Positions 3,849 to 53,043 of a DNA stretch of 64,000 nt are shown one piece after another (position 1 is the first letter of the stretch; every line of letters begins with the position of its first letter). The translations under genes and the position numbers were made by a program. The notes under the pieces were generated by a model. The model worked only from the letters and a program-made list of their open reading frames with translations. It did not search any database and was not told where the DNA came from. The stretch covers positions 44,761,469-44,825,468 of the forward strand of contig OZ020485.1 in assembly GCA_963971405.1 (NCBI GenBank), written 5' to 3'. This DNA is from Psococerastis gibbosa (taxonomy: Eukaryota; Arthropoda; Insecta; Psocodea; Psocidae).

Positions 3849-4233
3849 CGCACTAAGGCGCCCATTCCATCGACCGGCTAGGGCTATTTCCAAAAACAGT
3901 GACGTGGTAGCAGACATTCAAGACTTAGGTTGCGTTTCCACCGACCTCGCATTGCAGAATTGACGGAAATGTATAATTTCCTCTATGCCATAGTTAAAAT
4001 TGATCAATGATCATACAGTAAAATCACAAACAAACTAAAATTAAAAAATGGCGTCATGGGATATGTTAAGTACAAACATTTTAATTGATTTCTATAAAAA
4101 GAAAAATTCTAATTTCCGTCAATGTCATTTGCATTCTGCAATGCGAGGTCGATGGAACGTCACCTAAGTCTTGAATGTCTGCTACCACGTCACCGTTTTT
4201 GGAAATAGCCCTAGCCGGTCAGTGGAATGGGCA
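3849..4233. mobile_element. GGCGCC long-TIR MITE, copy 1, inside the LINE relic
   Basis: About 385 bp whose arms of roughly 150 bp are reverse complements: the left begins GGCGCCCATTCCATCGACCG and the right ends GGTCAGTGGAATGGGCAGC. The centre carries GATCAATGATCATACAG and a GGCGTCATGGGATATG block. It is the same family as copies at 24.86, 32.83 and 50.94 kb. Left flank is CTAA and right flank TTAC, so no clear target duplication. The frame 3390-3917 (minus) is the LINE relic and MITE read backwards and is not a gene. Confidence 0.85.
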
Positions 4234-4289
4234 GCTTACCATAAGATGCAAGAACCCTCTATCAAGCAGCGCAGCAGGACAGCTATGGG

Positions 4290-4608
4290 CAGGGGCGTAA
4301 AGTTGGGGGGGGGGGGGGCACGGTCCAACTTGCCCCCCAGCTTCTTTGGGGGGGGGGGGCTTTGCCCCCCAGCCTTGACCATTGTAAGACGTGGTTCATA
4401 CTTCATGGTCCCTTTTGCAGCAATATGAATATAGGTATCCCTTTTTTAGCTTTGTAAAATCTTCAGCTACTACTTTACAACTATTAAAATGCGTAAAACC
4501 ATACTATTTTGCTCTTATATTTTCAATTTTTCCTAAAATCCTGCCTGATGACGTCATAAGGTCTACTTAGTTTTGCCCCCGCCATCATTCTAAAACTTTA
4601 CGCCTCTG
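4290..4608. mobile_element. hAT-type MITE (GGCGTAAAGTT family), copy 1
   Basis: Ends CAGGGGCGTAAAGTT and AACTTTACGCCTCTG are inverted repeats. Flanks GCTATGGG (4282-4289) and GCCTTGGG (4609-4616) agree at 6 of 8 positions, fitting an aged 8-bp duplication. G runs of about 13 and blocks of CCCCCC lie inside the left end. A second copy in opposite orientation, with a perfect duplication, is at 52749-53043. A truncated piece lies in every unit of the 10.9-17.8 kb array. Confidence 0.82.
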
Positions 4609-4881
4609 GCCTTGGGAAATTTTTGGTAAAAAATTCTTTACCGTATGACCTACCAAGAGCAGCTTTTGTCGCCCCTTTTTCGATGCACTACAGACCACGA
4701 TTACCTGCAGGCTCACCAATGTCCACTCTGCCTTAGCGAACGCATGGATGCTGCCCACCTAACGTGTCAATAGATACAGAGCCCAAGCAATGACTTTACA
4801 TCACTATACTGGCATACTGGCAGGCGTGGCACCAGATGGCGGTGAAGCCCAGAGTGAGCGTTGGATAAAATAAAGTAAAGT

Positions 4882-7049
4882 ATGTACCTACCTTTCCTTA
4901 AGCTCAACTCAGCGCATTTTTCTGTGTCAGCCCCTGAAATAAACCTTATTGTTCGCCAATGTACTTCCGATAAAAAATAAAAATTAATTGAAGAATAAAT
5001 AAAAACTCCTTAAAATGTACCTTATTGCAAAATATACCCGTATAAGAAGCTTGAAGTGCAAACAAACTCCATCCAATTAGCTTCAAATTTTGGTATATTT
5101 TCAACATTTCATAAAGTAAGCGGAAAATTATGAAACCGAAACTGCATAAACCCCACCGCAAAATAGTTGCTGAGTAACGCTACTCGAATTCAAAACAGAA
5201 GGGTTGAAAAGGAAAAAAAATAGATTGTAAAATATTATTTCTTAGATAACATCTGTAAAAGGATCAACCCTTTCTCCATCATGTGACCACACCCTTCCCT
5301 TCAGTAAACTTCCTGTCATCTTAAGTCAAAACAATTCCCAAAAATTCATTACCCCCTCTCCTCTCCTGCTGAAAATAAAGGTCTTTGAAATGGGAGGTGA
5401 TGTTTAAAAATGGCCCCAAGGCAGCCAGCAAGAAGTGAACTTGGCTGACACCCCTCGTATAATAGCCTTAACGTCATTTCAACCTTAAATATGATTCACA
5501 AACGACACAAGGAAAATTTGAATAAGTTCCATCTCTTGTACGAGGGGTGGCGGAATTATTTTCCAGTTTCGTGCCGGTTAAATCGGGTCGTCAAATATAC
5601 TATTTTGAACGTAACCATTGTAGCGTCTGCTTATTCCTTATGCTTTCATATCAAACGCGATAATTTTATATTTATGTCGTACTTTAGACAGGAAAATTGC
5701 TGGAAAGGGCTTGTTAAGAGGCAATCGAACACACCACTAGAAGGTTTTTGTAAAAAGCCAGATATTCCCATAAAATCTCGAGAATGGGCCATAAGTGAGT
5801 AGTAGATGAAGTAGGAGAAATACTCTTCTACGTTTTAACACATAGAAGGTTTACTGGCCCTAAAACCGTTTGGCCACTGTTTTTGAAGGCGTGAAAGAAA
5901 TACAATTATAGGTTAGTTCAAAACCTGTGGTCAAACGGGGTTTATGACGGCTAGGTACATACTGTGTAATTAAAAGTAGGGGAGCATTCCTTTTACTTCT
6001 TCTTCGTCTTCTCATTTATGGCTACATAATCGATGTTTAATGAGACAATTTACTTATGATGCATATCGAATTTTGGTGTTTGATATGTACCTATTTCTAA
6101 GACAATCAGTGAACTTTGTGAAAATTAACATAGTGAAGGTGGAAGTGAAAACAAGGAATTGTACTCTTATGCTTGTTAACTGTAGTATCCAGTTTGAATT
6201 GTGGCGTCAAGGGGAATTTCCCTATTCCGACAGAATAAAGAATTGTGTGCCGTTGTCGGTTCAAGGGTGTGTTCCATTACATACATTGATCTCAATAAGT
6301 TTTTTACATAAAGTATTCTCAATGATTCGACCTCATTTGAATACGTCAGTGGAAAAACAGGAAATGTGCACTTTTGTTCGAAATTGAGATAATGGTGGCA
6401 TTCTGTTCAGTTTTTAATCTAGTTTTAAATCATAAATGTCCTAACAAAACCGGAGAAAAACAATTAAAGATCTGCGCAAATGGTGTGGGAAAAACAGTAT
6501 ACAGGGCTACTTTAAACTTTATATTCGATTTCAGAAAAATCAACCTTTTATCACTTTTCCGGTTTTTCCCCTGACGTCTTCATGTGTCATAGCGCGTGTA
6601 TTAGGACATACAACAATAACACGGAAAAATATGGAAATATAGCTATTTCTAGCACCAACAATGAACTTTATGTTATTAGATATGTTTCTTCACAACAGCT
6701 ACATACATACAACTCAAACCAATAACAATAAAAACCAAGTCATTCGCGGCACTAACAAGAAAATGAAAAATTCATAAAATGTAGATATCAAATAATGGTG
6801 AAGACGAAAGAAAATAACAAGACAAAAAACTGGAAAGTTTATTCAAATTTGAAAAAGAAAATGAGATGTGCAGTAATAACTTTGTATGTAATATTTTTAA
6901 AGAAATATAAATCGTTTTTCCTCAGCGATTTCGCTCGCTGGAAAATCTGCAAGGGAAATAATTTTTGAGAGGCGGGAAAGCTGCAGAAAAAATGTTTTTA
7001 TGTTAACTAGCCAAGCGCGAAATTGGATGCACTAAGCAGCGATTATCTG
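4882..7049. other. Unassigned, gene-poor stretch
   Basis: Mostly unique-looking AT-rich sequence. The longest frames are 5491-5802 (103 codons) and 6040-6387 (115 codons), both plus. They have no recognisable motif and biased low-complexity composition, and I do not call them genes. If one were real, conservation in a relative would be the only visible test. No repeats shared with the rest of the window were noticed between 5300 and 6900. Confidence 0.35.
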
Positions 7050-7590
7050 TCGCTGGGCGGATTATGCTTTAGAAAGGTATAGGCCCTCAAGTGCAACTTG
7101 CAGGTGGATATCTCTTTAGTTTTTCAATAATGTAGATAAAGATAAGATAATTTTTTCTCTTGTACGGTCTATAGTAGAGTCGCTGGGCGGATTATGCTTT
7201 AGAAAAGTATAGGCCCTCAAGTGCTGCTTGCAGGTGATATCTCTTCAGTTTTTCAATAATGTAGACAAAGATAAGAACATGTTTTCTCTTGTACGGTGTA
7301 CAGTAGAGTTGCTGGGCGCATTATCCTTTAGAAAGGTGCAAGGTAGACAAAGGTTGGCTTAGTAATAGAAACAATAAAAAGTCCTTATTTATTTATTTAT
7401 TTATTTATTTATTATGAAGATAAGATAATTTTTTCTCTTGTACGGTCTACAGTAGAGTTGCTGGCTGGATTATCCTATAGAAAGACTTATAACCTTTTAT
7501 AGGCCCTCTTGTGCAACTTGCGAGTATCTCTTTAGTTTTCCCAATAATGTAGGAATAATGTAGGTCCCGTAAAGATAAGATATATTTTCA
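7050..7590. repeat. Minisatellite of about 130-bp units, four copies
   Basis: Units begin with TCGCTGGGCGGATTATGCTT at 7050 and 7180, a variant at about 7310 (GCTGGGCGCATTATCC) and another at about 7460 (GCTGGCTGGATTATCC). Each contains TTTTCTCTTGTACGGT. Spacings are 130, 129-130 and about 150, the last because a SINE tail is inserted (7352-7418). The units differ at many positions, so the array is not recent. Confidence 0.8.
7352..7418 (+). repeat. SINE D tail with TTTA microsatellite, inserted in the minisatellite
   Basis: The segment GTTGGCTTAGTAATAGAAAC followed by AATAAAAAGTCC and about seven TTTA units matches the 3' end of the SINE D copy at 56545-56712. It interrupts the third minisatellite unit. 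Confidence 0.7.
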
Positions 7591-8519: not shown

Positions 8520-8747
8520 GAAGAAGAAGAAGAAGAAGAAGAAGAAGAAGAAGAAGAAGAAGAAGAAGAAGAAGAAGAAGAAGATGAAGAAGAAGAAGAA
8601 GATGAAGAAGAAGAAGAAGAAGAAGAAGAAGAAGAAGACGAAGAAGAAGAAGAAGAAGACGAAGAAGAAGACGAAGACGAAGAAGAAGAAGAAGACGAAG
8701 AAGAAGACGAAGACGAAGAAGAAGAAGAAGAAGAAGAAGAAAAAGTC
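8520..8747 (+). repeat. 228-bp GAA/GAC/GAT trinucleotide tract
   Basis: Almost pure GAA with interspersed GAC and GAT, starting directly at the 3' end of a LINE fragment. The family tail is probably a short GAA repeat that expanded. Read in frame it would give poly-Glu/Asp or poly-Lys, which is a composition artefact and not a protein. It is a polypurine/polypyrimidine tract, a sequence type known to form triplex DNA when long. Confidence 0.92.
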
Positions 8748-9716: not shown

Positions 9717-10863
9717 ATTCTAACCTCGCCAGTCACCAGCAGCTCTAACTCCCTCCCCCCTCCCCAATTTCTGCGATGCCCATTGTTTACCCAACGCATC
9801 CCGTTATATCCGGAACTAATTACCAATTCATCTGAGATTAGAGTAGCAAGTTACGGATTTTGAGAGGGGGTGGGGGGGGGCTCCTTACCGGAGAGGGGGA
9901 GAGAGTTTCTTGTTCACCCCCCCTCCCCCCATGGCCCCAAGGTCCTTCTGCGAGGCTTCTTGGAAACTATATAGCATCTCCTTAGATACTGCCCCTCTGC
10001 CGTCTTATGTCCCATCACGCCTCTTCCCCCCCTGTTTGTCTTCGCCGCGGAAATTATTAGTTGTGCTGTTGTGTGTTCTGCGGGTTTTCGATCCAGTGCT
10101 GTTCCTGCCCCTCCCCTGTATTTGTAGGCGCCTCGTTTATCCGGGGTGTTGGCTCAACAGAGTTCGAGGCGAGGTCTGCTGATTTACGTAGTAACCCATT
10201 TAGTAGCCTATTCACCATTCTTCCAAGTAAAAGAGATTTATTGATTATTGTTTCGCCATTCATTTTTAGATCTGCCTACTGAATGGCTTCACAGGCTTTA
10301 CAAAGTTGAATCGACGAGAGCAGAGCACATGTCATACTGTTCATACATAGAGTAAGGTAACCAGAAAAACTAGATGAATTAAACTATTCAAAATTGCTAA
10401 TAGGCCACTTGGGTAGAATTAAACTGATATCTCGTTATATTGCTTTTAAAAAAAATCACATCCGTATAAAGAATGAGAAGATATAATCGACCATAAGGGC
10501 ATAAGGGATATAAAAAACTTTAAAACGTACGCGCTAAGCCCACGGCTCAAAGCATCTGTTGGGCCCCTACATCTTATTAAATTTTATACAGCACAGGAGA
10601 AAACAAAAAACAGCACTTTGTGACGCCAAAACATTAGACGTTTTTTTAAATCTTCTTTTTTTTCATCTCTTTTCAAATTCTTTCTGTAAATATATTTTTA
10701 TTGGATAAATTGGGACTAAGGGGATGGGGTAGTATAAAAAAAAATTGAAACAGAAGAATGTACATTTAATAACCTTTCCCAAACTTTGATCGCTGAATGA
10801 ATGGTTTCTTTGTTTTTGTTATTGATACTGCTGATTTGTTTTTGGGGTTGTTTTTAAAGGAAA
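9717..10863. other. Unassigned stretch before the tandem array
   Basis: GC-richer from 9860 to 10200, with G and C runs and overlapping frames (9910-10182, 10061-10282 plus) that lack recognisable motifs. AT-rich from 10300 to 10863. No supported gene or shared repeat. Confidence 0.35.
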
Positions 10864-11099
10864 ACAAGTAAACAGGTTTTGATGAAATTAAAAAGGTTCA
10901 GTGTGGGGTAATTCATTGGGCTAGGTATTCAATTAGCTTTCTTTTTTTCTTCTGAAGCAATATCTTGTTTTTGTTTGCGCGTGTGCTTAATTTTTATATA
11001 TCGTTGTATCGTTGTTGAATGGCTGTTTTAGCGGTTTTATACTGTAAGCTTTAACTATTTTTTACTGGTGATTTGTTCTTGTCATTTAATCTGGGTCAG

Positions 11100-11575
11100 G
11101 ACTGGCATCCGAACTTGGTGAACTCACGTGTACACCTGTTACATTGTCCCAATGGTAGGCTTCAGGCGCGGACCTACGGGGGGGGGGGGCTATTGAGGCT
11201 ATTATGGGGGCTATAGCCCCCCCCCCATTAGGGTACTCAAAATGCGTAAAACCCCACTATTTTTCACAATTTTTCTCAAGCGGGGAGACCCCCGGGCCCC
11301 CTTGTGCTGGATTGTATTAATTACCTATAATATAGAACTCTTATTGCTCTGAAAATGCGTAAAACCCCAATATTTCAGCCATATTTTTAAAAAAATCCGA
11401 AATTTAATCTTAGCCCCCTCCTTGGTCTCATTCTAGATCCGCGCCTGGTAGGCTTGGGTCAGATTGTCCATTATCGCTTCTAGTCGGTGTAGGTTAACAT
11501 ACAGGAAATTTTCAAGCTTGCCAATGGCCAAAAATTCGTTCAGAAACAAAGTTAATTCTATCCGAAAATCCTAGG
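11100..11575 (+). repeat. SINE B split by a hAT MITE, array unit 1
   Basis: Flanks of the MITE join to give a sequence matching 33262-33480 and 49175-49375: a CATCCGAACTTGG head, CATTATCGCTTCTAGTCGGT, then GCCAATGGCCAAAAATTCGT. Present in all five units. Only unit 5 keeps the full ATGGGTTCGT end. Confidence 0.75.
11163..11447. mobile_element. hAT-type MITE (GGCGCGGA family) in array unit 1
   Basis: Ends CAGGCGCGGA and TCCGCGCCTG. The duplication GTAGGCTT is perfect at 11155-11162 and 11448-11455. Copies recur at +1312 steps in each unit. The G12 and C10 runs flank GCTATTGAGGCTATTATGGG. Two AAAATGCGTAAAACCCC blocks in the interior link it to the larger element at 54382-54857. It sits inside a SINE B whose unbroken form at 33.3 kb reads AATGGTAAGCCTGCCTCAGC. 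Confidence 0.9.
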
Positions 11576-11691
11576 TCCGTATAAAAGGCGATCAGGACAT
11601 TACTAAAGTTTGAAATAATTTAAATAAGAGAGGTGCTGGGATTTGGTTCCATTTGAGCCATTGAAAAGACGTACCAGGTGGCCAGGGACGG

Positions 11692-11805
11692 ATCCAGCCC
11701 ATTGGAGTTTTGGGTCAAAATAGTAAAAACATATATAGCACCGATTTAATCAGAGCGTAACTTACTAAAAAAGTAATTTACTAAATTGCACTGAATTGCA
11801 CCAAA
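11692..11805. mobile_element. Truncated hAT-type MITE (GGATCCAGCCC family), array unit 1
   Basis: CAGGGACGGATCCAGCCC start with the family interior (GGGTCAAAATAGTAAAAACA, TTTAATCAGAGCGTAA). The right half is replaced by GATCCACGGAATTTTAAAAT sequence. Repeated in each unit. Confidence 0.7.
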
Positions 11806-14800
11806 AGATCCACGGAATTTTAAAATAACCGTGAATTCTTTCAGTGCCATTACCCCCACCTATATCCGTCGTAGTATGTCTTAAATGTCTGCTAAAACGT
11901 CAATACCATATTTACCAGAAGATCCACGGAATTTTAAAATAACCGTGAATTCTTTCAGTGCCATTACCCCCACCTATATCCGTCCATGCGGGTGGCCCCA
12001 GGATAAAAAGAAATATTTTTGGTGCGCTCGAATGGGTATAAGGCCGCGGGAAGACCTTGTAAGACCAGCACCACGCACAGCCAGAGGCGTAAAGTTTTAG
12101 AATGATGGCGGGGGCAAAACTAAGTAGACTTTATGACATTTTTAGTATGTCTTAAATGTCTGCTAAAACGTAATGACAAGTAAACAGGTTTTGATGAAAT
12201 TAAAAAGGTTCAGTGTGGGGTAATTCATTGGGCTAGGTATTCAATTAGCTTTCTTTTTTTCTTCTGAAGCAATATCTTGTTTTTGTTTGCGCGTGTGCTT
12301 AATTTTTATATATCGTTGTATCGTTGTTGAATGGCTGTTTTAGCGGTTTTATACTGTAAGCTTTAACTATTTTTTACTGGTGATTTGTTCTTGTCATTTA
12401 ATCTGGGTCAGGACTGGCATCCGAACTTGGTGAACTCACGTGTACACCTGTTACATTGTCCCAATGGTAGGCTTCAGGCGCGGACCTACGGGGGGGGGGG
12501 GCTATTGAGGCTATTATGGGGGCTATAGCCCCCCCCCCATTAGGGTACTCAAAATGCGTAAAACCCCACTATTTTTCACAATTTTTCTCAAGCGGGGAGA
12601 CCCCCGGGCCCCCTTGTGCTGGATTGTATTAATTACCTATAATATAGAACTCTTATTGCTCTGAAAATGCGTAAAACCCCAATATTTCAGCCATATTTTT
12701 AAAAAAATCCGAAATTTAATCTTAGCCCCCTCCTTGGTCTCATTCTAGATCCGCGCCTGGTAGGCTTGGGTCAGATTGTCCATTATCGCTTCTAGTCGGT
12801 GTAGGTTAACATACAGGAAATTTTCAAGCTTGCCAATGGCCAAAAATTCGTTCAGAAACAAAGTTAATTCTATCCGAAAATCCTAGGTCCGTATAAAAGG
12901 CGATCAGGACATTACTAAAGTTTGAAATAATTTAAATAAGAGAGGTGCTGGGATTTGGTTCCATTTGAGCCATTGAAAAGACGTACCAGGTGGCCAGGGA
13001 CGGATCCAGCCCATTGGAGTTTTGGGTCAAAATAGTAAAAACATATATAGCACCGATTTAATCAGAGCGTAACTTACTAAAAAAGTAATTTACTAAATTG
13101 CACTGAATTGCACCAAAAGATCCACGGAATTTTAAAATAACCGTGAATTCTTTCAGTGCCATTACCCCCACCTATATCCGTCGTAGTATGTCTTAAATGT
13201 CTGCTAAAACGTCAATACCATATTTACCAGAAGATCCACGGAATTTTAAAATAACCGTGAATTCTTTCAGTGCCATTACCCCCACCTATATCCGTCCATG
13301 CGGGTGGCCCCAGGATAAAAAGAAATATTTTTGGTGCGCTCGAATGGGTATAAGGCCGCGGGAAGACCTTGTAAGACCAGCACCACGCACAGCCAGAGGC
13401 GTAAAGTTTTAGAATGATGGCGGGGGCAAAACTAAGTAGACTTTATGACATTTTTAGTATGTCTTAAATGTCTGCTAAAACGTAATGACAAGTAAACAGG
13501 TTTTGATGAAATTAAAAAGGTTCAGTGTGGGGTAATTCATTGGGCTAGGTATTCAATTAGCTTTCTTTTTTTCTTCTGAAGCAATATCTTGTTTTTGTTT
13601 GCGCGTGTGCTTAATTTTTATATATCGTTGTATCGTTGTTGAATGGCTGTTTTAGCGGTTTTATACTGTAAGCTTTAACTATTTTTTACTGGTGATTTGT
13701 TCTTGTCATTTAATCTGGGTCAGGACTGGCATCCGAACTTGGTGAACTCACGTGTACACCTGTTACATTGTCCCAATGGTAGGCTTCAGGCGCGGACCTA
13801 CGGGGGGGGGGGGCTATTGAGGCTATTATGGGGGCTATAGCCCCCCCCCCATTAGGGTACTCAAAATGCGTAAAACCCCACTATTTTTCACAATTTTTCT
13901 CAAGCGGGGAGACCCCCGGGCCCCCTTGTGCTGGATTGTATTAATTACCTATAATATAGAACTCTTATTGCTCTGAAAATGCGTAAAACCCCAATATTTC
14001 AGCCATATTTTTAAAAAAATCCGAAATTTAATCTTAGCCCCCTCCTTGGTCTCATTCTAGATCCGCGCCTGGTAGGCTTGGGTCAGATTGTCCATTATCG
14101 CTTCTAGTCGGTGTAGGTTAACATACAGGAAATTTTCAAGCTTGCCAATGGCCAAAAATTCGTTCAGAAACAAAGTTAATTCTATCCGAAAATCCTAGGT
14201 CCGTATAAAAGGCGATCAGGACATTACTAAAGTTTGAAATAATTTAAATAAGAGAGGTGCTGGGATTTGGTTCCATTTGAGCCATTGAAAAGACGTACCA
14301 GGTGGCCAGGGACGGATCCAGCCCATTGGAGTTTTGGGTCAAAATAGTAAAAACATATATAGCACCGATTTAATCAGAGCGTAACTTACTAAAAAAGTAA
14401 TTTACTAAATTGCACTGAATTGCACCAAAAGATCCACGGAATTTTAAAATAACCGTGAATTCTTTCAGTGCCATTACCCCCACCTATATCCGTCGTAGTA
14501 TGTCTTAAATGTCTGCTAAAACGTCAATACCATATTTACCAGAAGATCCACGGAATTTTAAAATAACCGTGAATTCTTTCAGTGCCATTACCCCCACCTA
14601 TATCCGTCCATGCGGGTGGCCCCAGGATAAAAAGAAATATTTTTGGTGCGCTCGAATGGGTATAAGGCCGCGGGAAGACCTTGTAAGACCAGCACCACGC
14701 ACAGCCAGAGGCGTAAAGTTTTAGAATGATGGCGGGGGCAAAACTAAGTAGACTTTATGACATTTTTAGTATGTCTTAAATGTCTGCTAAAACGTAATGA

Positions 14801-16111
14801 CAAGTAAACAGGTTTTGATGAAATTAAAAAGGTTCAGTGTGGGGTAATTCATTGGGCTAGGTATTCAATTAGCTTTCTTTTTTTCTTCTGAAGCAATATC
14901 TTGTTTTTGTTTGCGCGTGTGCTTAATTTTTATATATCGTTGTATCGTTGTTGAATGGCTGTTTTAGCGGTTTTATACTGTAAGCTTTAACTATTTTTTA
15001 CTGGTGATTTGTTCTTGTCATTTAATCTGGGTCAGGACTGGCATCCGAACTTGGTGAACTCACGTGTACACCTGTTACATTGTCCCAATGGTAGGCTTCA
15101 GGCGCGGACCTACGGGGGGGGGGGGCTATTGAGGCTATTATGGGGGCTATAGCCCCCCCCCCATTAGGGTACTCAAAATGCGTAAAACCCCACTATTTTT
15201 CACAATTTTTCTCAAGCGGGGAGACCCCCGGGCCCCCTTGTGCTGGATTGTATTAATTACCTATAATATAGAACTCTTATTGCTCTGAAAATGCGTAAAA
15301 CCCCAATATTTCAGCCATATTTTTAAAAAAATCCGAAATTTAATCTTAGCCCCCTCCTTGGTCTCATTCTAGATCCGCGCCTGGTAGGCTTGGGTCAGAT
15401 TGTCCATTATCGCTTCTAGTCGGTGTAGGTTAACATACAGGAAATTTTCAAGCTTGCCAATGGCCAAAAATTCGTTCAGAAACAAAGTTAATTCTATCCG
15501 AAAATCCTAGGTCCGTATAAAAGGCGATCAGGACATTACTAAAGTTTGAAATAATTTAAATAAGAGAGGTGCTGGGATTTGGTTCCATTTGAGCCATTGA
15601 AAAGACGTACCAGGTGGCCAGGGACGGATCCAGCCCATTGGAGTTTTGGGTCAAAATAGTAAAAACATATATAGCACCGATTTAATCAGAGCGTAACTTA
15701 CTAAAAAAGTAATTTACTAAATTGCACTGAATTGCACCAAAAGATCCACGGAATTTTAAAATAACCGTGAATTCTTTCAGTGCCATTACCCCCACCTATA
15801 TCCGTCGTAGTATGTCTTAAATGTCTGCTAAAACGTCAATACCATATTTACCAGAAGATCCACGGAATTTTAAAATAACCGTGAATTCTTTCAGTGCCAT
15901 TACCCCCACCTATATCCGTCCATGCGGGTGGCCCCAGGATAAAAAGAAATATTTTTGGTGCGCTCGAATGGGTATAAGGCCGCGGGAAGACCTTGTAAGA
16001 CCAGCACCACGCACAGCCAGAGGCGTAAAGTTTTAGAATGATGGCGGGGGCAAAACTAAGTAGACTTTATGACATTTTTAGTATGTCTTAAATGTCTGCT
16101 AAAACGTAATG

Positions 16112-17820
16112 ACAAGTAAACAGGTTTTGATGAAATTAAAAAGGTTCAGTGTGGGGTAATTCATTGGGCTAGGTATTCAATTAGCTTTCTTTTTTTCTTC
16201 TGAAGCAATATCTTGTTTTTGTTTGCGCGTGTGCTTAATTTTTATATATCGTTGTATCGTTGTTGAATGGCTGTTTTAGCGGTTTTATACTGTAAGCTTT
16301 AACTATTTTTTACTGGTGATTTGTTCTTGTCATTTAATCTGGGTCAGGACTGGCATCCGAACTTGGTGAACTCACGTGTACACCTGTTACATTGTCCCAA
16401 TGGTAGGCTTCAGGCGCGGACCTACGGGGGGGGGGGGCTATTGAGGCTATTATGGGGGCTATAGCCCCCCCCCATTAGGGTACTCAAAATGCGTAAAACC
16501 CCACTATTTTTCACAATTTTTCTCAAGCGGGGAGACCCCCGGGCCCCCTTGTGCTGGATTGTATTAATTACCTATAATATAGAACTCTTATTGCTCTGAA
16601 AATGCGTAAAACCCCAATATTTCAGCCATATTTTTAAAAAAATCCGAAATTTAATCTTAGCCCCCTCCTTGGTCTCATTCTAGATCCGCGCCTGGTAGGC
16701 TTGGGTCAGATTGTCCATTATCGCTTCTAGTCGGTGTAGGTTAACATACAGGAAATTTTCAAGCTTGCCAATGGCCAAAAATTCGTTCGGAAACAAAGTT
16801 AATTCTATCCGAAAATCCATGGGTTCGTTATCATTGGGCAAAAGACCGACCTAGGTCCGTATAAAAGGCGATCAGGACATTACTAAAGTTTGAAATAATT
16901 TAAATAAGAGAGGTGCTGGGATTTGGTTCCATTTGAGCCATTGAAAAGACGTACCAGGTGGCCAGGGACGGATCCAGCCCATTGGAGTTTTGGGTCGAAA
17001 TAGTAAAAACATATATAGCACCGATTTAATCAGAGCGTAACTTACTAAAAAAGTAATTTACTAAATTGCACTGAATTGCACCAAAAGATCCACGGAATTT
17101 TAAAATAACCGTGAATTCTTTCAGTGCCATTACCCCCACCTATATCCGTCCATGCGGGTGGCCCCAGGATAAAAAGAAATATTTTTGGTGCGCTCGAATG
17201 GGTATAAGGCCGCGGGAAGACCGCGTAATAAATTCATTTACAATAGATTTACTAAATTGCACTGAATTTGGCACCAAAAGATCCACGGAATTTTAAAATA
17301 ACCGTGAATTCTTTCAGTGCCATTACCCCCACCTATATCCGTCCATGCGGGTGGCCCCAGGATAAAAAGAAATATTTTTGGTGCGCTCGAATGGGTATAA
17401 GGCCGCGGGAAGACCTTGTAAGACCAGCACCACGCACAGCCAGAGGCGTAAAGTTTTAGAATGATGGCGGGGGCAAAACTAAGTAGACTTTATGACATTT
17501 TTAGTATGTCTTAAATGTCTGCTAAAACGTCAATACCATATTTACCAGAAGATCCACGGAATTTTAAAATAACCGTGAATTCTTTCAGTGCCATTACCCC
17601 CACCTATATCCGTCCATGCGGGTGGCCCCAGGATAAAAAGAAATATTTTTGGTGCGCTCGAATGGGTATAAGGCCGCGGGAAGACCTTGTAAGACCAGCA
17701 CCACGCACAGCCAGAGGCGTAAAGTTTTAGAATGATGGCGGGGGCAAAACTAAGTAGACTTTATGACATTTTTAGTATGTCTTAAATGTCTGCTAAAACG
17801 TCAATACCATATTTACCATT
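16112..17820 (+). repeat. Fifth, structurally older unit of the array
   Basis: Starts like units 1-4 but has a 33-bp segment (from 16819, ATGGGTTCGTTATCATTGGG onward) that the others lack, a C9 instead of C10 run, and single-base differences (for example CGTTCGG for CGTTCAG). The segment is present in independent SINE B copies at 33.4 and 49.3 kb, so units 1-4 carry the deletion. It also retains a longer right part, with three copies of the GATCCACGGAATTTTAAAAT block (about 17089, 17280 and 17551) where units 1-4 have two. Confidence 0.9.
17268..17809 (+). repeat. 271-bp direct repeat at the array end
   Basis: GATCCACGGAATTTTAAAAT at 17280 and 17551, and CAATACCATATTTACC at 17531 and 17802, give a period of 271 bp. 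Each copy ends in a truncated hAT MITE (AGAGGCGTAAAGTTTTAG). This shorter tandem period may have seeded the unequal exchange that built the larger array. Confidence 0.85.
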
Positions 17821-17942
17821 GACCATTGACGTATGTGGAAACCCCGCCTTAGTATAAAGAAGTAAAGAACCTCGTCCCCGTAAGAGAAAATCTAGTTTGG
17901 CCAGACTATGCCTATGACAACCGGATTGGACTATATAGTAGG

Positions 17943-18117
17943 CATGGATGGATACAGGGGAGGGGCAGGGGGGTGGGTAGCTACCCCCGCCCCAAATTTG
18001 GTAAATCTATTGTAAATTAATTCACTACGCTCTGATTTAATCGATCCTACGTATGTTTTTCCTATTTTGACCCACAACTACCCCCTCCTCCCCAAAAATG
18101 GGCTGGATCCGTCTATG
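17943..18117. mobile_element. hAT-type MITE (GGATCCAGCCC family), reversed
   Basis: Ends CATGGATGGATACAGG and GGGCTGGATCCGTCTATG; the interior is the reverse complement of the family core (TTTGACCCACAACTACCCC). I see no 8-bp duplication: flanks are ATAGTAGG and ACACCAAA. One boundary may have been lost or rearranged. Confidence 0.75.
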
Positions 18118-18944
18118 ACACCAAAAGGAGGATGTTATTTTACCTAATAGGAGTCTCAAGAATAATGTTTGGAGGATTAAGGTTAACCCTAAGGAAAGAG
18201 GGTTTATTAAGATAACATATGTACAATATGTAAAATATATAAAATATGTACAATGTATACATACAATATATCCATCGTTTGGAAAGGGAACTTGTAAATT
18301 TTGACACAAATTTTAGTGAAACCATTACTATTACACAACCCACATCATCTTAAATGCTTAAGCCTAACAGGAAGTCAGAAACCGCAATAGACACAAGGAA
18401 GGCTTATGAAGGGTAACTAAGAGCGAGGGGGGGGGGGATGAAAGTTAGTGGTACGGAAGCGTCTTGTCTTGACCGTGTATCCATCTGTTTGTAGTTAATA
18501 ATGCAGCGGGAATTAGTAAGGTATAGTAACTCCGGAAGGGGCCTTGTCTAGGGGGTTCCTTCGCCCCATAGGGACTTTGCGCCTTATAAATGTTATTCCT
18601 TATAGCCGTATTCTTGCTGTTAGGGAAATAAGCTGCTACTGACGGTTAAGGTCCAATTGGAGTCCCCCCCCCCTCCCGTGGGACACCAACGCTACTATTT
18701 TTTTGGTACATAGTCAAATTTCGCGGTAAATATTTCGTGTAGGTAGGTAGATGGAAGATTTTACGCCAGACATTAGAAGAAAATATATTTCTGGACATTT
18801 TGATTCATGACATGTGACCTTCACTAGCACTGATTGGTCACAATCTTCAGAAATGATATGCACAAAAATGGCGTCCGCACGCCTTACCAACCGTTTTTCA
18901 TGCGAAACAAATTCTGATTTATATACCCTATGCTTGAAATTGTT
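18118..18944. other. Unassigned stretch
   Basis: Includes a low-complexity TATAAAATATGTACAATATG-like segment at 18220-18270, a G run near 18430 and a C run near 18666. The frames at 18037-18343 (minus) are repeat and low-complexity translation. No gene supported. Confidence 0.4.
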
Positions 18945-19035
18945 CGAAATTGTAGCAAGTGTGGGACTTGAACTAACCCCCTTCCTGTCTTCGCGTGCAA
19001 TTCAAACACCATACCACTAAGCTAATCTCTCGTAA
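18945..19035 (-). repeat. tRNA-like SINE D head, minus orientation
   Basis: The reverse complement contains TAGCTTAGTGGTATGG (A-box-like) and GGTTAGTTCAAGTCCCAC (B-box-like), then CACTTGCTACAATTT. This matches the head of SINE D copies at 47.6 and 62.25 kb. It is a tRNA-derived head and not a folded tRNA gene. Confidence 0.65.
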
Positions 19036-19203
19036 GGTGGACTGTTTATTATCTTTTGCATCGGAAATGGAATAAAATAGGGAAGACCCTCTCTGTCAGT
19101 TCTCAATCCTTAGAACCCGCTCGAATAAACCCCACTAAGCCTTCAAGTAAGATGTAACGAGCCGTTTCTAAGTTTCTGATGGCCACTTTCTTTTTACTTG
19201 CAG

Positions 19204-19287
19204 AATCCCTGGCCCAGGAGTTAGAGCTCGAGCGAAAGTCCCGTCAGCCGACTCCCTCCGATCGCGATGTCAAGTCTCCCTTGCAAG
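19204..19287 (+). CDS. Probable internal coding exon of an unidentified host gene
   Basis: An 84-bp segment with strong signals on both sides: acceptor tract TTTCTTTTTACTTGCAG ending at 19203, and donor CAAG/GTACGTT at 19287/19288. Possible branch points are TCTAAGT and TCTGATG about 25-35 bp upstream of the acceptor. Of the three frames, the one starting at the third base is open and protein-like: it begins SLAQELELERKSRQ and ends SDRDVKSPLQ, entering in phase 2 and leaving one base (G). The exon is clearly more GC-rich than its surroundings and matches no repeat elsewhere in the window. The charged, Ser/Pro/Gln-rich content looks like a linker or regulatory segment. A second frame is also open, so the phase is inferred from composition. 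I do not recognise the gene. If real, the surrounding DNA is intron and the gene lies on the plus strand. Confidence 0.6.
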
Positions 19288-19372
19288 GTACGTTCATTTC
19301 TTTTGGCAATATCGCTTCGGTATAGGAACGCCTAGCCTTTTAGTAAGTTGGTGGCAGGGGTGTTATTCCAGA

Positions 19373-19500
19373 CAGAGACGGATCCAGCCCTTTTGGGAGG
19401 TAGCTGTGGGTCCAAATAGAAAAAAAAATGCAGTATCGATTAAATTACAGCGTAATCAATAGAGTTTATAAATTTGGGGGTGGGGCAGCTGCCGTCCATG
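19373..19500. mobile_element. hAT-type MITE (GGATCCAGCCC family), degraded
   Basis: Left end CAGAGACGGATCCAGCCC, right end CAGCTGCCGTCCATG. Interior GTGGGTCCAAATAGA and CAGCGTAATCAATAG match the family. Flanks ATTCCAGA and ACCCCAGG match at only 5 of 8, so the duplication is doubtful. Confidence 0.65.
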
Positions 19501-21228
19501 ACCCCAGGGGGTTAATTGCCCCTCTCTGCGATGGAAAAAAAATACTCAATTGATCCTGACTAACGAAGAAATCGTTATAACCTTGGTCATTTTGTCATTT
19601 TGCCCCCCCCCCCCACCTTCTCTGAAAAATATAAAATCTACTTGATAAAAAACTGCACTAGAGACCAGAAGATTTTAGTTGTTGTCCGATATGATGAAAG
19701 TTATTTCAACATATTTTCTTCCGGCCCATAAAGGGCAACTGAAAATTCATATTTACCGGTCAGGGGGAAAAGGACACTCAAATAACACCTTAGAGTTACC
19801 GAATAAGAGGGTTTAAATTTTTTTACCAGTCCCTAGTGCTATAGTTGCCATCCCCTTTTCGTTAGGTTTTTAGCCGTACTGGACTCATTTTTAACCCTTT
19901 ATTGGCTTTATTCCTTACTTAAAAGGCTGTAATTTTGTAACAATATATGATATACGGTGCAACCTCTCCCACAAAATTGTCAATTCCTATTTTACTCAGA
20001 CCTTTAATATTTGCAAATTAGCTGCTGAAGGTTTTTCTTTAAAAAAAAAATTCCTTCTGCTTCGAATCTCGAACTTCGTCCTTCCATTTTACTTAGTCCA
20101 GTACTCTACCAACTGGTTTACAAATCCCTAATCCCCAAATAATTTCTCCCATTCCTAACATCAAATTATCCAATTACTCTAAATCGCCACCTGGCCAGAC
20201 AAGACAAATCCAAAATTTCAAATAAAGGCTTATAACCGAATGATTGATGACAATTTAAATTTAACTTAGACTTAGTGACACGACTGTTTTCGGGGCTCAG
20301 CATAATTATTTTTGAAATTTAGGTAGATACAATTTAATTGTTCCCTTGTATTTCGCCGGAGCGTAATAAGAAAATAACAGTTGGGTATGAAATTCACCGT
20401 AAATTGAAGCAACTCAAATAGTTTCCACTGCTGTCAACCCCGTCATCTTAGATGGAATGTATTTTAGTAATCCATCATAGGGACTTGACAGATCATCCCT
20501 TATCCTTTCCAATTTTGTGCCACGGTATGTGTTTTTAATACAATATATTCACTTCTATTTTACAAGATAATAGCCTAATCGTTTATTGCTCTAGTTCGAT
20601 TTCCTTTCTTTCTTCGCTCTTTGTTGAAAATTTGGGGGTTCGTTGTTTGGTTTTGCTGAGTTTGTATCTATATGAACCTTTCTCTTACATTGTTCCATTT
20701 TTCCTTTGGCTCCTTTGATGTGTACCGCCGCCTGTTTAAATTAAAATTGATTTAGAAAATCAATAACATTGTATTGTATCTATATCGAAATATGTTATGA
20801 GCATTAGTTCAAGATTCAGTGCAAGCGCAGCTTTAAGGACTTTTAGGGCACCAAGGAATTGTAACACCCCCGTAATCATATTTTTTAAATGTCAGTTTAG
20901 TGCCAAATTGATGCATTACTATTGTATAAGCTAAAAAACACTTTTTTTATATTATTATCCGCAATCGGTCTAATTTTTTTAGGTTAATCCAAATTTTAGT
21001 GTTGCATTAATATAATCTACAAAACACTCGGTTTCTTATTATAATCCACAATTGGTCTTATTTTTTAAGATTAATCCATGGGGCCGTTGGCATTGGGCAA
21101 GGGAGAAGACGACTAGGTCAATAAAAAACCCCTCGGGAGATTATTTATATTTATATACTGTATTGTATGTACCAAATGTTTTTGTTTACCTTTATACATT
21201 CTTCATGTGCAAAACGGCTACCACAGTG
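19501..21228. other. Unassigned AT-rich stretch, possibly intronic
   Basis: No supported gene. It includes a C run near 19604 and a tRNA-like SINE E fragment (20075-20135). A diffuse imperfect duplication near 20940-21080 repeats AAAACACT, ATTATAATCC and CAATYGGTCT, with ACACTTTTTTTATATTATTA the first copy. Confidence 0.45.
20075..20135 (-). repeat. SINE E fragment, minus orientation
   Basis: The reverse complement contains CCAGTTGGTAGAGTACTGGA and ACGAAGTTCGAGATTCGA, a tRNA-like A box and B box. Related pieces lie at 28.6 kb (minus) and 49.4 kb (plus). Confidence 0.55.
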
Positions 21229-24689: not shown

Positions 24690-25610
24690 TCTTCTATGTT
24701 TTGGTAGATGCGATGTACGAACACTGTCCCATTTTTTCTATTCCTTCCTCGGGACGCCCTTTTGCACAAATCAAGTGCAATTCTTTTTCTTCTATATGCC
24801 TCTTCTATCAATGATTGGCGATCATAATGACACTTTGGACCTCGGAAAATGCTGTTTTGGAAAGGCGCCCATTCCATTGACCGGCTAGGGCTATTTCCAA
24901 AAACGGTGACGTGGTAGCAGACATTCAAGACTTAGGTGGCGTTTCCACCGACCTCGCATTGCAGAATTGACGGAAATGTTTATTTTCCTCTATGCAATAG
25001 TTAAATTTGATCAATGATCATACAGTAAAATCACAAACAAACAAACTAAAATTAAAAAATGGCGTCATGGGATATGTTAAGTACAAACATTTTAATAGAT
25101 TTCTATAAAAAGAAAAATTCTAATTTCCGTCAATGTCATTTCCATTCTGCAATGCGAGATCGGTGGAAACGCCACCTTAGTCTTGAATGTCTGCTACCAC
25201 GTCACCGTTGTTGGAAATAGCCCTAGCCGGTCAATGGAATGGGCGCCTTTGGAAAGGGAAGTCACGCTCTTGCCAAACCACTGATTTTTGCTCAACCAGG
25301 ATGTTTTTCTTCTGCCCCAGCATTCAGTCCTTATACCTCCTTTTGGATTGTAACATGCATAAAGCGATATTTTTCGATCCTCATCTCTAGACCGAAGCAT
25401 GTTGTTTCTTAAACGTCAGCAGCAACTTGGCTTCTGTATCCATTCATCTGAGAAGCTCAGCATTAGGGACAAGATCTCTCCATTGGGCATTCGTCTGTAT
25501 ATCCACATTTCAAATGCACTGATTCTGTTTGGGTCATTTGTCCGTCCAATATACATGGGCGCCGAGTTGTGAAAATTATTGATATGGCCCAACATTGCCT
25601 GAGGACATCT
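24690..25610 (-). pseudogene. LINE 3' coding end, minus, interrupted by a GGCGCC MITE
   Basis: On the minus strand, about 25525-25555 reads FEMWIYRRM. Downstream segments give WGRRKTSWL then QWFGKSVTS, and the coding end continues past the MITE at 24864-25247 to the IANxR-type segment near 24800. FEMWIYRRM, GRRRxSWLKNL and QWFGK belong to one endonuclease/RT LINE lineage (RTE-like by recollection). Frames are broken in several places. The ORFs at 25194-25400 and 25416-25694 (minus) are parts of it. Confidence 0.65.
24864..25247. mobile_element. GGCGCC long-TIR MITE, copy 2, perfect 8-bp TSD
   Basis: 384 bp. Left GGCGCCCATTCCATTGACCG, right CGGTCAATGGAATGGGCGCC. TTTGGAAA flanks both sides (24856-24863, 25248-25255), and the related LINE copy at 22.2 kb shows a single unduplicated CTCTGGAAGGGGAAGTC at this place. 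Arms of about 150 bp are near-perfect inverted repeats around a centre of about 80 bp. Non-coding. Confidence 0.9.
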
Positions 25611-29532: not shown

Positions 29533-30037
29533 AGATTAGATTAGATTAGTAATGGGGCGATGCTGCTACTTGAGCTTGGCTCACTTTGACCTTAAAGATC
29601 TATTGTGAATCCCCGTACTTTTAGTCCTGGTCAGTCAGCAGGTCCCGTAAAAACCTGCACAACTGCCCAGGGGCCAACTGGCAAGCCTCCCTTGGTGATA
29701 GAAACCAAGAGGACGTTGCTAGCAGCCGTCTGTTCTTTACTGCCGGACACGAGCAGATGATATGCTCAGCAGTCTCAGCCTTTTCTTTGCAGAATCGGCA
29801 GGTGTCATTCAAGACTTTACCCATGTTCTTTAAATGGTAGTTCACGTGGCAGTGTCCTGTGAGTGCACCTGTAAGTACCTTAAGTTCAGGCTTGCTGAGG
29901 TTCAGTGCTTTGGCGGTATAGCTCTTAGAGTGAGTGAGGAATATTTTGGATTGTCTGTGGCCTGTGACAGACTTCCAGTATGCTTCCTTTCTCTTTTCTT
30001 CCCATAGGCCAATCTCTAGGGTTTGGCGGTTAAACAT
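29533..30037 (-). pseudogene. LINE ORF2 C-terminus with TTAGA-repeat tail, minus
   Basis: A 138-codon open frame (30037 to 29621): the start has TGHRQSKIF, residues 55-75 LTGALTGHCHVNYHL, residues 80-105 the finger CRFCKEKAETAEHIICSCPA. This is the region after RNase H in RNase H-bearing LINEs (I/R1/Jockey-like), where TGHCxxxYHL and the CxxC...H...C finger are diagnostic. The frame is intact over this span but the element is 5'-truncated, so no RT or endonuclease is present. An 85-bp 3' UTR follows the stop and ends in ATTAGATTAGATTAGATTAG (29533 onward). The same 3' end is inserted at 329-411. The open frame suggests it is one of the younger LINE fragments here. Confidence 0.85.
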
Positions 30038-30039
30038 AT

Positions 30040-31740
30040 AAATACAGTATACTTTATGATTTAGTTCAATAATTCATGTTATAAACTGTAGTAATCTACA
30101 GTCAATTAAAAGGAACGCAGTAATGTATTGTATAAAATGTAAATTTCAATGGCAAAATTTAATTGCGCTTAAAATGTTTAGCTATACAAATAATTTAATA
30201 ATTTATACATAATTTAGTTCCTACATGCGACCCATTTCAATTGCACATGTTTTGTGAATTTGTTGCGATAAACATATTTATTTCATCCCTTTGTCTAATA
30301 ATATTGTATATGTTATTTCACTTACTGTCTGATTTAACGTTTTAGTCGATTAAAATGCTAAGAGTGATAATGCATCTTGTATATGTATCATAGGTAATTT
30401 ACTTCATCTTCTTTATATACCTTGTTAGCCCCCCCCCCCCCAGGGTGTCAAGGGATTTTAAATTTCATATGTAACACAATCTCTGCGTTCCCACGATTTT
30501 TGGCTCAGGCAAGAGTTCACCTATGGAACTTACATACAAGTCTTCGTGTTGTTTGAACTTGCTATGATTCAAATGTGGGCACCCCCTGATTGCGGTGGAT
30601 TCCGAACCCATTGGCTACTGCCTCTCACAAGGAAAATTATTTGTAATTAAACAGAGGTAAAAAGGTACCAATGGTTTCACGTATGAAAGTCCTGATCGCC
30701 ATCCACTACGACTTTCCCCAGCAACTCAATAACCGCCTCACACAAATTCCATCAGACCAAGTGTGACCACTCTGATCACTGGCAATACTTACATCTTTGA
30801 GGACATCGAACATAGCTTATATAACCGAAATTCGAGGATACAGATACTTCTATCCAGAAAAAGAAGTTACACATAAATTTCGTGTTTTTAGTTCTCACCG
30901 CTAGGCGCTGTAGTAGTAGAATGGTTGGACACAGTCTCAGGCCATGGTGTGTGCCCATAGGACAGTGGACCTCCTGATTATAGTGGGTTCCGAACCACTT
31001 GGGAAACACAGTGAAGTCACACGATTAGTTCGGAGGTGACCAGGACAAGTCCTACCATGTTTCCCTACCGGCACTGTGCACACGACCAAGTTATCTGCAT
31101 CTTTGAACCTGCTCTGGTTCGCTGGATTCAACTAGGCGCTGACTTCACCAATTTCTGAATCGTCTATTACTATCGATCGACTTGGAATTTTCCCGAAACG
31201 AAAACTCTTTTTGAAGATGGAACGAAGTGAAGTATATTTTCTGTGGAAATACAGGTTCTCAACTATTTAGCATTTTAACTATATGAAAACCGTTAAATCA
31301 AATACTATGAATATTACCCTTTTATACGATAAGTGGTGTACTTTAGCTTCTCAATAGATGATTTGATAATGTATGTAATTGAGTGAAAATTGTAAATATG
31401 TGAGCCTTGATGGCCGAGTGAATGGTTAAATTAAAAAACGATTCTCCAATTATATTAATGTGTTGTATTTCTTTTTCCTGCAAATACTTAAAGTAGCGTA
31501 CTACATAAACCATTTGGGCATGACGTCATGTTGTCAAGCCTTTAGCAGTTGCGTCGAGTAGTATGGCGCTCTAGCAGCGCCAAATTTTTAGCGAAGGGTA
31601 CGATTTCATGCACAGTAGATTTTTAATAGACTACTACTATAGTATTATTTAATATTCATGAATTGATAGCAGAGGCTGAGGCAAAGATTTCCAAATATTT
31701 AGCAACAAAGCATGCCCGGTATTTTTTTAAACTAATCATT
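30040..31740. other. Mostly unassigned, with a SINE A piece
   Basis: AT-rich sequence with a C run near 30431. A short diverged SINE A core (GTGGATTCCGAACCCATTGG) lies at about 30588-30615, and the better copy at 30955-31137 is annotated separately. No gene supported. Confidence 0.4.
30955..31137 (+). repeat. SINE A, partial
   Basis: GGACCTCCTGATTATAGTGG, TTCCGAACCACTTGGG and TCGGAGGTGACCAGGAC match the family A core. The 5' half before GTGGACC is missing. Confidence 0.75.
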
Positions 31741-32711: not shown

Positions 32712-32828
32712 AGTAATAATAACTTAACTTGGGGTTTAAAATGTAAAAATATCATTTTTTGCTGAGTAGCACATTGCATTCTAAAATGATCTTGTTTACA
32801 TTTTTAACCCCAGAATAAACTATTACTA
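32712..32828. mobile_element. Small hairpin repeat (TTGGGGTTTAAAATG family), copy 1
   Basis: AATAACTTAACTTGGGGTTT and the right AACCCCAGAATAAACTATTA arms pair imperfectly around about 35 bp. A second copy is at 33672-33770 (GGGGTTAAAAATGTAAACAC...TTTTTAATCACAGAATAAG). Confidence 0.6.
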
Positions 32829-32830
32829 TA

Positions 32831-33214
32831 GGTGCCCATTCCATTGACCGGCTAGGGCTATTTCCAAAAACGGTGACGTGGTAGCAGACATTCATGACTT
32901 AGGTGGCGTTTCCATCGACCTCGCATTGCAGAATTGACGGAAATGTTTATTTTCCTCTATGCCATAGTTAAAATTGATCAATGATCATACAGTAAAATCA
33001 CAAACAAACAAACTAAAATTAAAAAATGGCGTCATGGGATATGTTAAGTACAAACATTTTAATAGATTTCTATAAAAAGAAAAATTCTAATTTCCGTCAA
33101 TGTCATTTGCATTCTGCAATGCGAGATCGGTGGAAACGCAACCTAAGTCTTGAATGTCAGCTACCACGTCACTGTTTTTGGAAATAGCCCTAGCCGGTCA
33201 ATGGAGTGGGCGCC
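32831..33214. mobile_element. GGCGCC long-TIR MITE, copy 3
   Basis: 384 bp, left GGTGCCCATTCCATTGACCG, right CCGGTCAATGGAGTGGGCGCC less one base at the limit. Flanked by ATA on both sides (32828-32830, 33215-33217) but no 8-bp match. It abuts the small hairpin repeat on its left. Confidence 0.87.
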
Positions 33215-33261
33215 ATATGACATGGTATACAGGCCCTCCACATACATTTTTTTCAATGCAC

Positions 33262-33500
33262 GTAAGTTCTTGACTCGTATCTGTACTTGGTTCAGTCATG
33301 CTTTGGTCTGTTTCATTGCGTCAATGGTAAGCCTGCCTCAGCTTGTCCATTATCACTTGTAGCCGGTGTAGATTGACATCGACGACTTTTACCAGTTTGC
33401 CAATTAATGGCCAAAATTTCATACGGAAACAATATAAATAATGTCCGAAATCCATGGGGTCGTTGGCGTTGAACAAGGGACCAATGCGACTCTTTAAGTA
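33262..33500 (+). repeat. SINE B, uninterrupted copy
   Basis: Contains GTACTTGGTTCAGTCATGCT, AATGGTAAGCCTGCCTCAGC, TGTAGCCGGTGTAGATTGAC and ATCCATGGGGTCGTTGGCGT. It provides the empty site for two insertions elsewhere: the hAT MITE in the array units and the TTAA element at 47910. Confidence 0.8.
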
Positions 33501-43104: not shown

Positions 43105-43487
43105 GATTAAGCAGCATAATCTGGGATGATAGGCCGTGGTCGTTCTGAAAGCGTACATCCAAACGTTTCGTCAACGTCTGTGATCGACATCTTCAGCAGG
43201 GACGGATCCAGCCCTTTTTTTTGGGGGGGGGGGTATTTGTGGGTTAAAATAGGAAAACGTGTGTAGTATCGATTAAATCAGAGCGTAATAAATTAATTTA
43301 CAATAGATTTACCAAATTTACCAAAATACCCCCCTCTGTGTTTCAGTGGAACTGCGAAGATTTCTAAGATTGTATCTCGGAGGCTCAGTTTGCTGCTGAG
43401 ATGTTGCTGCAGCTGATGTTGACGAAAGGTTTGGAAGGTTTGGAAGCACGCTTTCAGAGCGACCACGGCCTATCATCCCAGATTCTA
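43105..43487. repeat. Inverted duplication around a hAT MITE
   Basis: AATCTGGGATGATAGGCCGT then GGTCGTTCTGAAAGCGT (43108-43154) recurs in reverse complement at 43447-43485 with few differences. The alignment continues inward for about 30 bp (GTTTCGTCAACG against CGTTGACGAAA-like). Both arms code the same peptide, SGMIGRGRSES, pointing towards each other, so a coding fragment was duplicated head to head. The 43318-43509 minus frame includes one arm. The source element is unidentified. Confidence 0.75.
43197..43325. mobile_element. hAT-type MITE (GGATCCAGCCC family), truncated right end
   Basis: CAGGGACGGATCCAGCCC start, a G run of 11, GTGGGTTAAAATAGGAAAAC, and AATCAGAGCGTAATAAATTA; ends around ACCAAATTTACCAAAATACC without a right TIR. 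It lies in the loop of the inverted duplication. Confidence 0.75.
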
Positions 43488-50892: not shown

Positions 50893-51640
50893 TTGTTTCT
50901 AAAGCTTGCTTTCAGCATTTCTGCTCTAGGCGCCCATTCCACCGACCGGCTAGGGCTATTTACAAAAACGTTGACGTGGTAGCAGACATTCAAGACTTAG
51001 GTGGCGTTTCCACCGACCTCGCATTGCAGAATGCAAATGGCATTGACGGAAATTAGAATTTTTCTTTTTATAGAAATCTATTAAAATGTTTGTACTTAAC
51101 ATATCCCATGACGGCATTTTTTAATTTTAGTTTGTTTGTTTGTGATTTTACTGTATGATCATTGATCAATTTTAACTATGGCATAGAGGAAAATAAACAT
51201 TTCTGTCAATTCTGCAATGCGAGGTCGGTGGAAACCCCGCCTAAGTCTTGAATGTCTGCTACCACGTCACTGTTTTTGTAAATAGCTCCAGCCGGTCGGT
51301 GGAGTGGGCGCCTTAAGCAACCCTGTCAGCCTGGCGGGGGGAGTGAATCTGTTTGTTAACTTATTGAGGCACCCTAAGGGCAGACTCTTTCACCTCGGGG
51401 AAAGAGGAGTTGACTGACAGGGTGGACCTCCTGATTATAGTGGGTTCCGAGCCACTTGGGGAACATGGTAAAGTCACACGATTAAATCGGAGGTGACCAG
51501 GACTTGACTTATACTGCCTAAGCGAGTTATCATGTCCCACCAGGTTCCCCTGCCAACGCTGTGCACACTACCAAGTTGCCGCTGTTTGAAAGATGCTCTG
51601 CTCTAATGGAATCAACATGGTAAGGTCGTTGTAAGTCAGA
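50893..51640 (+). repeat. SINE A, plus, split by a GGCGCC MITE
   Basis: 50893-50938 (GCTTGCTTTCAGCATTTCTG) joins 51313-51640 (TTAAGCAACCCTGTCAGCCT ... GGTCGTTG). Other copies have the site as TTCTGCTTTAAGCAACC without interruption. Confidence 0.85.
50939..51312. mobile_element. GGCGCC long-TIR MITE, copy 4
   Basis: 374 bp, left GGCGCCCATTCCACCGACCG, right CGGTCGGTGGAGTGGGCGCC, orientation of the centre reversed relative to copies 1-3. Compared with the empty site, the flanks are CTA and TTA, which fits a 3-bp duplication of TTA with one change, not 8 bp. Confidence 0.88.
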
Positions 51641-52575: not shown

Positions 52576-52748
52576 GAAAAGAAGCCCTAAAACGTCAGGA
52601 ATTTGGAAAGGAGTGCCATTTTTTAAGTCTAGCTTCACCCTAAACAAATCTACCTGAAAAACGCCCTAAATAGTGCTATCACTGCTACCTCGTAACAGTA
52701 AGGACAGCCGAATTGCTCTAGAAATGTAAGTGTCAGTGTGTCACTAAC

Positions 52749-53043
52749 CAGAGGCGTAAAGTTTTAGAATGATGGCGGGGGCAAAACTAAGTAGACCTAA
52801 TGACGTCATCAGGCAGGATAAGGAAAAAATGAAAATATTGGGGTTTTACACATTTTAATAGTTGAAAAGTATAGCTGTAGATTTTAAAAAAGCTAAAAAA
52901 GGAATGCTTATATTCATATCGCTGCAAAGGGGACCATGAAGTATGAGCCACGTCTTACAATGCTCGAGGCTGGGGGGGCAAAGCCCCCCAAAAGGAGCTG
53001 GGGGGGCAAGTTGGACCATGCCCCCCCCAGCTTTACGCCCCTG
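52749..53043. mobile_element. hAT-type MITE (GGCGTAAAGTT family), copy 2, perfect TSD
   Basis: Ends CAGAGGCGTAAAGTTTTAG and AGCTTTACGCCCCTG. TCACTAAC is perfect at 52741-52748 and 53044-53051. Interior ATGACGTCATCAGGCAGGAT and GGACCATGAAGTATGAGCCA are shared with 4290-4608 in reverse. Confidence 0.92.

Follow-up and report, generated by a model that had tools for sequence, protein, structure and literature searches.

What is the block of indistinguishable 1312-bp repeats found in the genome of the psocodean insect Psococerastis gibbosa, and by which events did it arise? The block lies in a stretch of 64,000 nucleotides of contig OZ020485.1 (positions 44,761,469 to 44,825,468 of the forward strand), which was analysed as a whole and is called the window hereafter. 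Compared with itself at a lag of 1312 bases, the window gives an exact match that starts at position 10864 and is 4298 bases long, and at lags of 2624, 3936 and 5248 the exact matches measure 2986, 1674 and 362 bases. Exact repeats of such length are far beyond chance expectation. By direct string comparison, the four tandem units (unit 1, 10864-12175; unit 2, 12176-13487; unit 3, 13488-14799; unit 4, 14800-16111; no strand assigned) are one and the same string letter for letter, including a run of twelve G and a run of ten C. The first-pass annotation had described exact 1312-bp steps and four units without visible difference, even in these two runs, and its coordinates are right to the base. 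The extent that it gave, 10864-16111, is exact for the identical units, but a fifth copy and a set of internal repeats were missed, with which the structure runs on to 17818.

The fifth copy (16112-17818, no strand assigned), recognised by global alignment with unit 1, is of an older type and carries further internal duplications. It retains stretches of 33 bp and 350 bp that are absent from units 1-4, and the exact lag match extends 362 bases into it. The G12 run is unchanged in all five copies, and the C run counts ten bases in units 1-4 and nine in the fifth copy. Each of the four units ends with a four-base filler, AATG (12172-12175 in unit 1, no strand assigned; the units and the contexts of their junctions are identical), which thus stands at every unit-to-unit junction. 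The same junction, filler included, is found where unit 4 meets the fifth copy, whose sequence is distinct, and the boundary between the unique left flank and unit 1 has no filler. Satellite DNA, in the sense of a long array of many units, is not what the window contains, since only four units and one older copy are present in 64 kb.

Each unit had been described at first as a composite of SINE and MITE pieces, and the MITE half of this description holds. Unit 1 contains a complete MITE of 285 bp (11163-11447, no strand assigned) that begins with the terminal inverted repeat (TIR) CAGGCGCGGA, ends with TCCGCGCCTG and is flanked on either side by the 8-bp target-site duplication (TSD) GTAGGCTT, so that both TIR and TSD are in place. 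The element includes the G12 and C10 runs; it recurs in every unit, and a version shorter by one base lies at 16411-16694. Target-site duplications of 8 bp are of the size made by hAT elements, and the MITE is hAT-like in this respect. The SINE half found no tRNA or Rfam support: ARAGORN predicted no tRNA in the window, and at Rfam gathering scores there was no SINE and mir-263 was the only family, in a test aimed at tRNA-, 5S- or 7SL-derived heads, which a diverged head would escape in both programs. A Helitron-like origin, which the nesting of the repeats brought to mind, was likewise not adopted. A second TIR element (TIR CAGGGACGGATCCAG) is represented in the units by a fragment of its left side (11683-11760 in unit 1, plus strand), which self-BLAST aligns with 19373-19455 at 74% identity and which continues into the flank on the 3p side of mir-263; the same TIR is found again at 43197 and 36346. 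A third repeat family contributes a fragment of 58 bp (12080-12137, plus strand), 98% identical to 4553-4610 on the minus strand and 96% identical to 52748-52804. On the far side of the mir-263 block, at 17943-18113, the second TIR element is present in opposite orientation, and the block thus lies between two facing copies of it.

The idea of a satellite being born from transposon debris overlooked the main content of the units, which both Rfam and a search with the mature sequence identify as two miR-263 copies in each. When the whole window was scanned at gathering scores, the sole Rfam hit was the mir-263 precursor (RF00706) at 17256-17335 on the minus strand, with 58.6 bits against a gathering score of 51.3, an E-value of 2.2e-12 and both arms in the match. 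Relaxed thresholds, applied to positions 10000-20000, returned 17 hits, all of them mir-263, 11 on the minus and six on the plus strand. The minus-strand places score 58.6 bits (one), 48.8 bits (five) and 34.4 bits (five), so the gathering score is reached by one of the eleven and the other ten, at 34.4-48.8 bits, stay below it. The 23-nt 5p sequence AATGGCACTGAAAGAATTCACGG has eleven exact occurrences in the window, two per unit and three in the older block, and none in 100 shuffles; allowing up to three mismatches added no further site in the 64 kb. All eleven exact copies have the 263a-type seed AUGGCAC in the mature 5p sequence. A miR-263b pattern, searched over the window with up to three mismatches, matched just the eleven mir-263 sites; miR-263b accompanies mir-263 in clusters of some arthropods, and its failure to turn up counts against the origin favoured below. 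A 263-type pattern had no match in collections of viral and of prokaryote contigs, a result that says little about relatives.

Published sequences agree with this identity. In Aphis gossypii, the identical 23 nt are printed under miR-183, and their first 21 nt are those of miR-263a in the same table (PMC3500242). In the moth Plutella xylostella, pxy-miR-263a-5p consists of the same 23 nt and one more G (PMC5241650), and a primer named api-miR-263a in a prawn study contains the last 22 of the 23 nt (PMC5607309).

The eleven copies, all on the minus strand, fall into three classes. Type A, the intact hairpin, is represented once, by the Rfam hit at 17256-17335, which folds at -28.8 kcal/mol with a z-score of -4.63. 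Type A*, whose 3p arm lacks a TG, scores 48.8 bits, below gathering, and is found once in the older block (17063-17142) and once in every unit (11783-11862, 13095-13174, 14407-14486 and 15719-15798 in units 1 to 4); its fold has -25.3 kcal/mol and a z-score of -4.06, as calculated for two of the five copies, those of unit 1 and of the older block, the remaining units being identical to unit 1 in every letter. Type B is truncated, with the 3p base of the hairpin replaced, and scores 34.4 bits (over model positions 18-69 in unit 1); it is found at 11914-11959, 13226-13271, 14538-14583 and 15850-15895 in units 1 to 4 and at 17544-17589 in the older block. Two stretches were folded around each of two of the five type B copies and folded no better than shuffles, with z-scores of -0.27 and +0.74 in unit 1 and of -0.27 and +0.11 in the older block. 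A stable hairpin that pairs both arms is plausible for the six A and A* copies (z from -4.06 to -4.63 in the three that were folded), and the five type B copies have no convincing hairpin. If the block is transcribed, as we infer, the predicted folds make processing plausibly conceivable for up to six of the eleven copies, those of types A and A*. Every 1312-bp unit contains one A* and one B, the two damaged types, and no intact A.

Since the plus-strand z-scores are comparable, folding cannot decide the strand, which is settled by the scores from Rfam and by the mature sequence. Plus-strand folds have weaker energies (-19.5, -16.4 and -9.5 kcal/mol) with z-scores of -4.38, -4.17 and -1.78, which are similar to those of the minus strand or, for A* and B, more extreme. 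The six plus-strand Rfam hits (20.3-26.4 bits) are the mirror image of the type A and A* hairpins, and at the same places the minus strand scores 58.6 and 48.8 bits against 26.4 and 20.3 bits on the plus strand.

Such a proportion of damaged hairpins gives some room to the view that the array is dead: the working mir-263a would be elsewhere, and the block, a duplicate rich in transposons and under neutral drift, would be a young minisatellite that holds fossil microRNAs. We regard this as possible but doubtful. It would account for ten of eleven copies falling short of the gathering score and for five having no 3p base, for the amplification by the units of precisely the damaged types, and for a block that sits among repeats in a window where the search gave no miR-263b-like sequence. 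It does not sit well with the hairpin at 17256-17335, which exceeds the gathering score, nor with the identity of all eleven 5p sequences, although divergence in the block is too low for that identity to prove selection.

How low this divergence is can be read from the global alignment of unit 1 with 16112-17801, in which 1307 positions are aligned with three mismatches and gaps of 33, 350 and 1. One of the three mismatches falls on a filler base where a deletion was joined, which leaves, gaps aside, two substitutions in 1306 bp; spread over two lineages of 1306 bases, these amount to 0.08% per lineage (95% interval 0.009-0.28%). The three extra units, 3 x 1312 bp or 3936 bases, show no difference at all, which caps the divergence among units at about 0.08%. 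In the older block, copies 2 and 3 do not differ over 270 bases, and at their junction the letters ACCA are common to both parents and are followed by one changed base. From this low divergence it follows that the layers measured are of recent origin or that exchange has kept them alike, and the very recent amplification proposed in the first-pass annotation is borne out by the same figures.

The direction of several changes can be read from related repeats. In relatives at 33325 and 49209 the 33-bp stretch survives in diverged form, and the base at the first substitution (11542 in unit 1, 16789 in the fifth copy) is G, so the units are derived at both places, and the 33 bp were lost from them. 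At the second substitution (11717/16997), three other copies of the element have A and a fourth (19373-19455) has C; judging from these copies, it is probably the fifth copy, with G, that is derived here, a direction less firm than that at 11542/16789.

Perfect identity also calls the assembly into question. The number of units, four, might be an artefact, the true count being lower or higher, or the units and the fifth copy might be alleles set in a row; consensus polishing or the unrolling of a graph could yield perfect identity too, G12 and C10 runs included, and the two substitutions in 1306 bp, besides gaps, that set the fifth copy apart are compatible with an allelic difference. We nevertheless hold this to be unlikely. 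The AATG junction joins unit 4 to a distinct fifth copy and is absent at the unique left flank, which means that at least one tandem duplication involved sequence that was not indistinguishable, and the duplications of 193 bp and 271 bp described below do not depend on the unit count. Identical units of 1.3 kb would normally be merged in an assembly from short reads, not printed four times.

That the hairpins belong to a MITE resembling mir-263 by chance is barely credible: TIR elements are indeed present inside the unit, but they recur in the 64 kb searched, whereas the 5p sequence, even with three mismatches, does not occur there outside the array, and the Rfam match at 17256-17335 spans both arms with its E-value of 2.2e-12.

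A minus-strand mir-263 microRNA locus that was multiplied through nested local duplications, and whose units were amplified very recently, is in our opinion the probable origin of the array. We infer the order of events and their mechanism as follows. A single mir-263 hairpin would have lain next to a truncated TIR element. A duplication of about 193 bp would have doubled it, and the loss of TG from the 3p arm of one copy would have given type A*. A further duplication of 271 bp, at the shared letters ACCA, may then have deprived one copy of its 3p base, giving type B. The whole would next have been duplicated over about 1.69 kb, the filler AATG sealing the joint, and the left copy would have lost 33 bp and 350 bp, becoming a unit in which a single A* and a single B are present. 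Finally, unequal exchange, or else a rolling or template-switch process, would have raised this 1312-bp unit to four copies, too recently for any difference to have arisen yet.

The likely effect of such an array is a rise of miR-263-5p that is modest at most. The amplified unit carries only A* and B and not the intact hairpin, which counts against selection for dose. We would give little credence to the bolder proposal that the dose of a conserved sense-organ microRNA is set here by an expanding, probably length-polymorphic array, in which individuals differ through unequal exchange. Should array length vary among individuals, these would form a natural series of graded doses of a microRNA that protects the sense organs of flies against cell death (PMC2885982). 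The same source describes how Drosophila miR-263a and miR-263b shield bristle precursors from apoptosis through the repression of hid, and reports that the seeds of the two are shifted by one residue.

Conserved microRNAs are usually present in one or few copies. Arrays of microRNA precursors are nevertheless a known kind of locus, of which young, identical mir-263 units are a new example. According to one report, miR-427 has 171 tandem precursors in Xenopus tropicalis and, lying in both orientations, 33 in X. laevis, the miR-430 array of zebrafish has more than 2000 precursors, and the X. tropicalis array is thought to speed the accumulation of mature miRNA (PMC10569791). The array of P. gibbosa resembles these in holding many precursors of one microRNA in a single array. 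The frog and fish loci, as presented there, are larger, encode miRNAs of embryonic clearance and have demonstrated expression; here the microRNA is of the miR-263 type, with eleven copies on one strand, four identical units and five damaged copies.

That microRNA clusters arise through tandem duplication is recognised (PMC3763532). A study of locusts names mir-263 among the conserved miRNAs that were duplicated and calls local tandem duplication frequent, and its accessible portion gives no array of identical units such as the present one (PMC4556993). Clusters of mir-263a and mir-263b in Daphnia (PMC3763532) and of 'miR-263-96' in millipedes (PMC7523956) likewise link members of one family; those clusters are made of old, diverged paralogues, in contrast to the young, identical copies of 263a type found here. 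The family is not immune to change, as seed substitutions in mir-263a have been described in a report on a bumblebee genome (PMC4414376). In the open-licence PMC literature, as far as its accessible text extends, no prior report of an identical tandem array of mir-263 was found, a result that does not establish its absence in print. An array caught before its units diverge offers a view of how a microRNA cluster can begin, by small nested duplications, of which one took place at a short stretch of shared letters, and by the subsequent amplification of one unit, with some hairpins broken in the process.

No protein-coding gene was identified: Pfam, applied to nine of the 31 open reading frames of the window, gave one match just short of its cut-off, and three exon-like stretches, including the body of a splice-flanked candidate at 19206-19286, had no match. 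The Pfam match is to zf-RVT, in the reading frame 29621-30073 on the minus strand (26.6 bits against a cut-off of 27.5), which is probably, to judge from this domain, the remnant of a non-LTR retrotransposon. A family of palindromic repeats of about 385 bp, with ends similar to GGCGCCCATTCCATTGACCGGCTAGG, is present at 3852-4238, 24861-25250, 32826-33217 and 50924-51319 with mutual identities of 94-97%; three copies match their own reverse complement at 72-75% over about 400 bp, and the copy at 50924-51319 does so at 92% over its outer 111 bp. Two inverted stretches of 74 bp, 338-411 and 29537-29610, are 100% identical and lie about 29 kb apart. A 129-bp tandem repeat occupies 7049-7552 (2.2 copies, 91% identity), with more partial copies downstream, and a GAA-type hexamer array of 37.7 copies at 8520-8745 reads as a run of Glu and Asp within an open reading frame.
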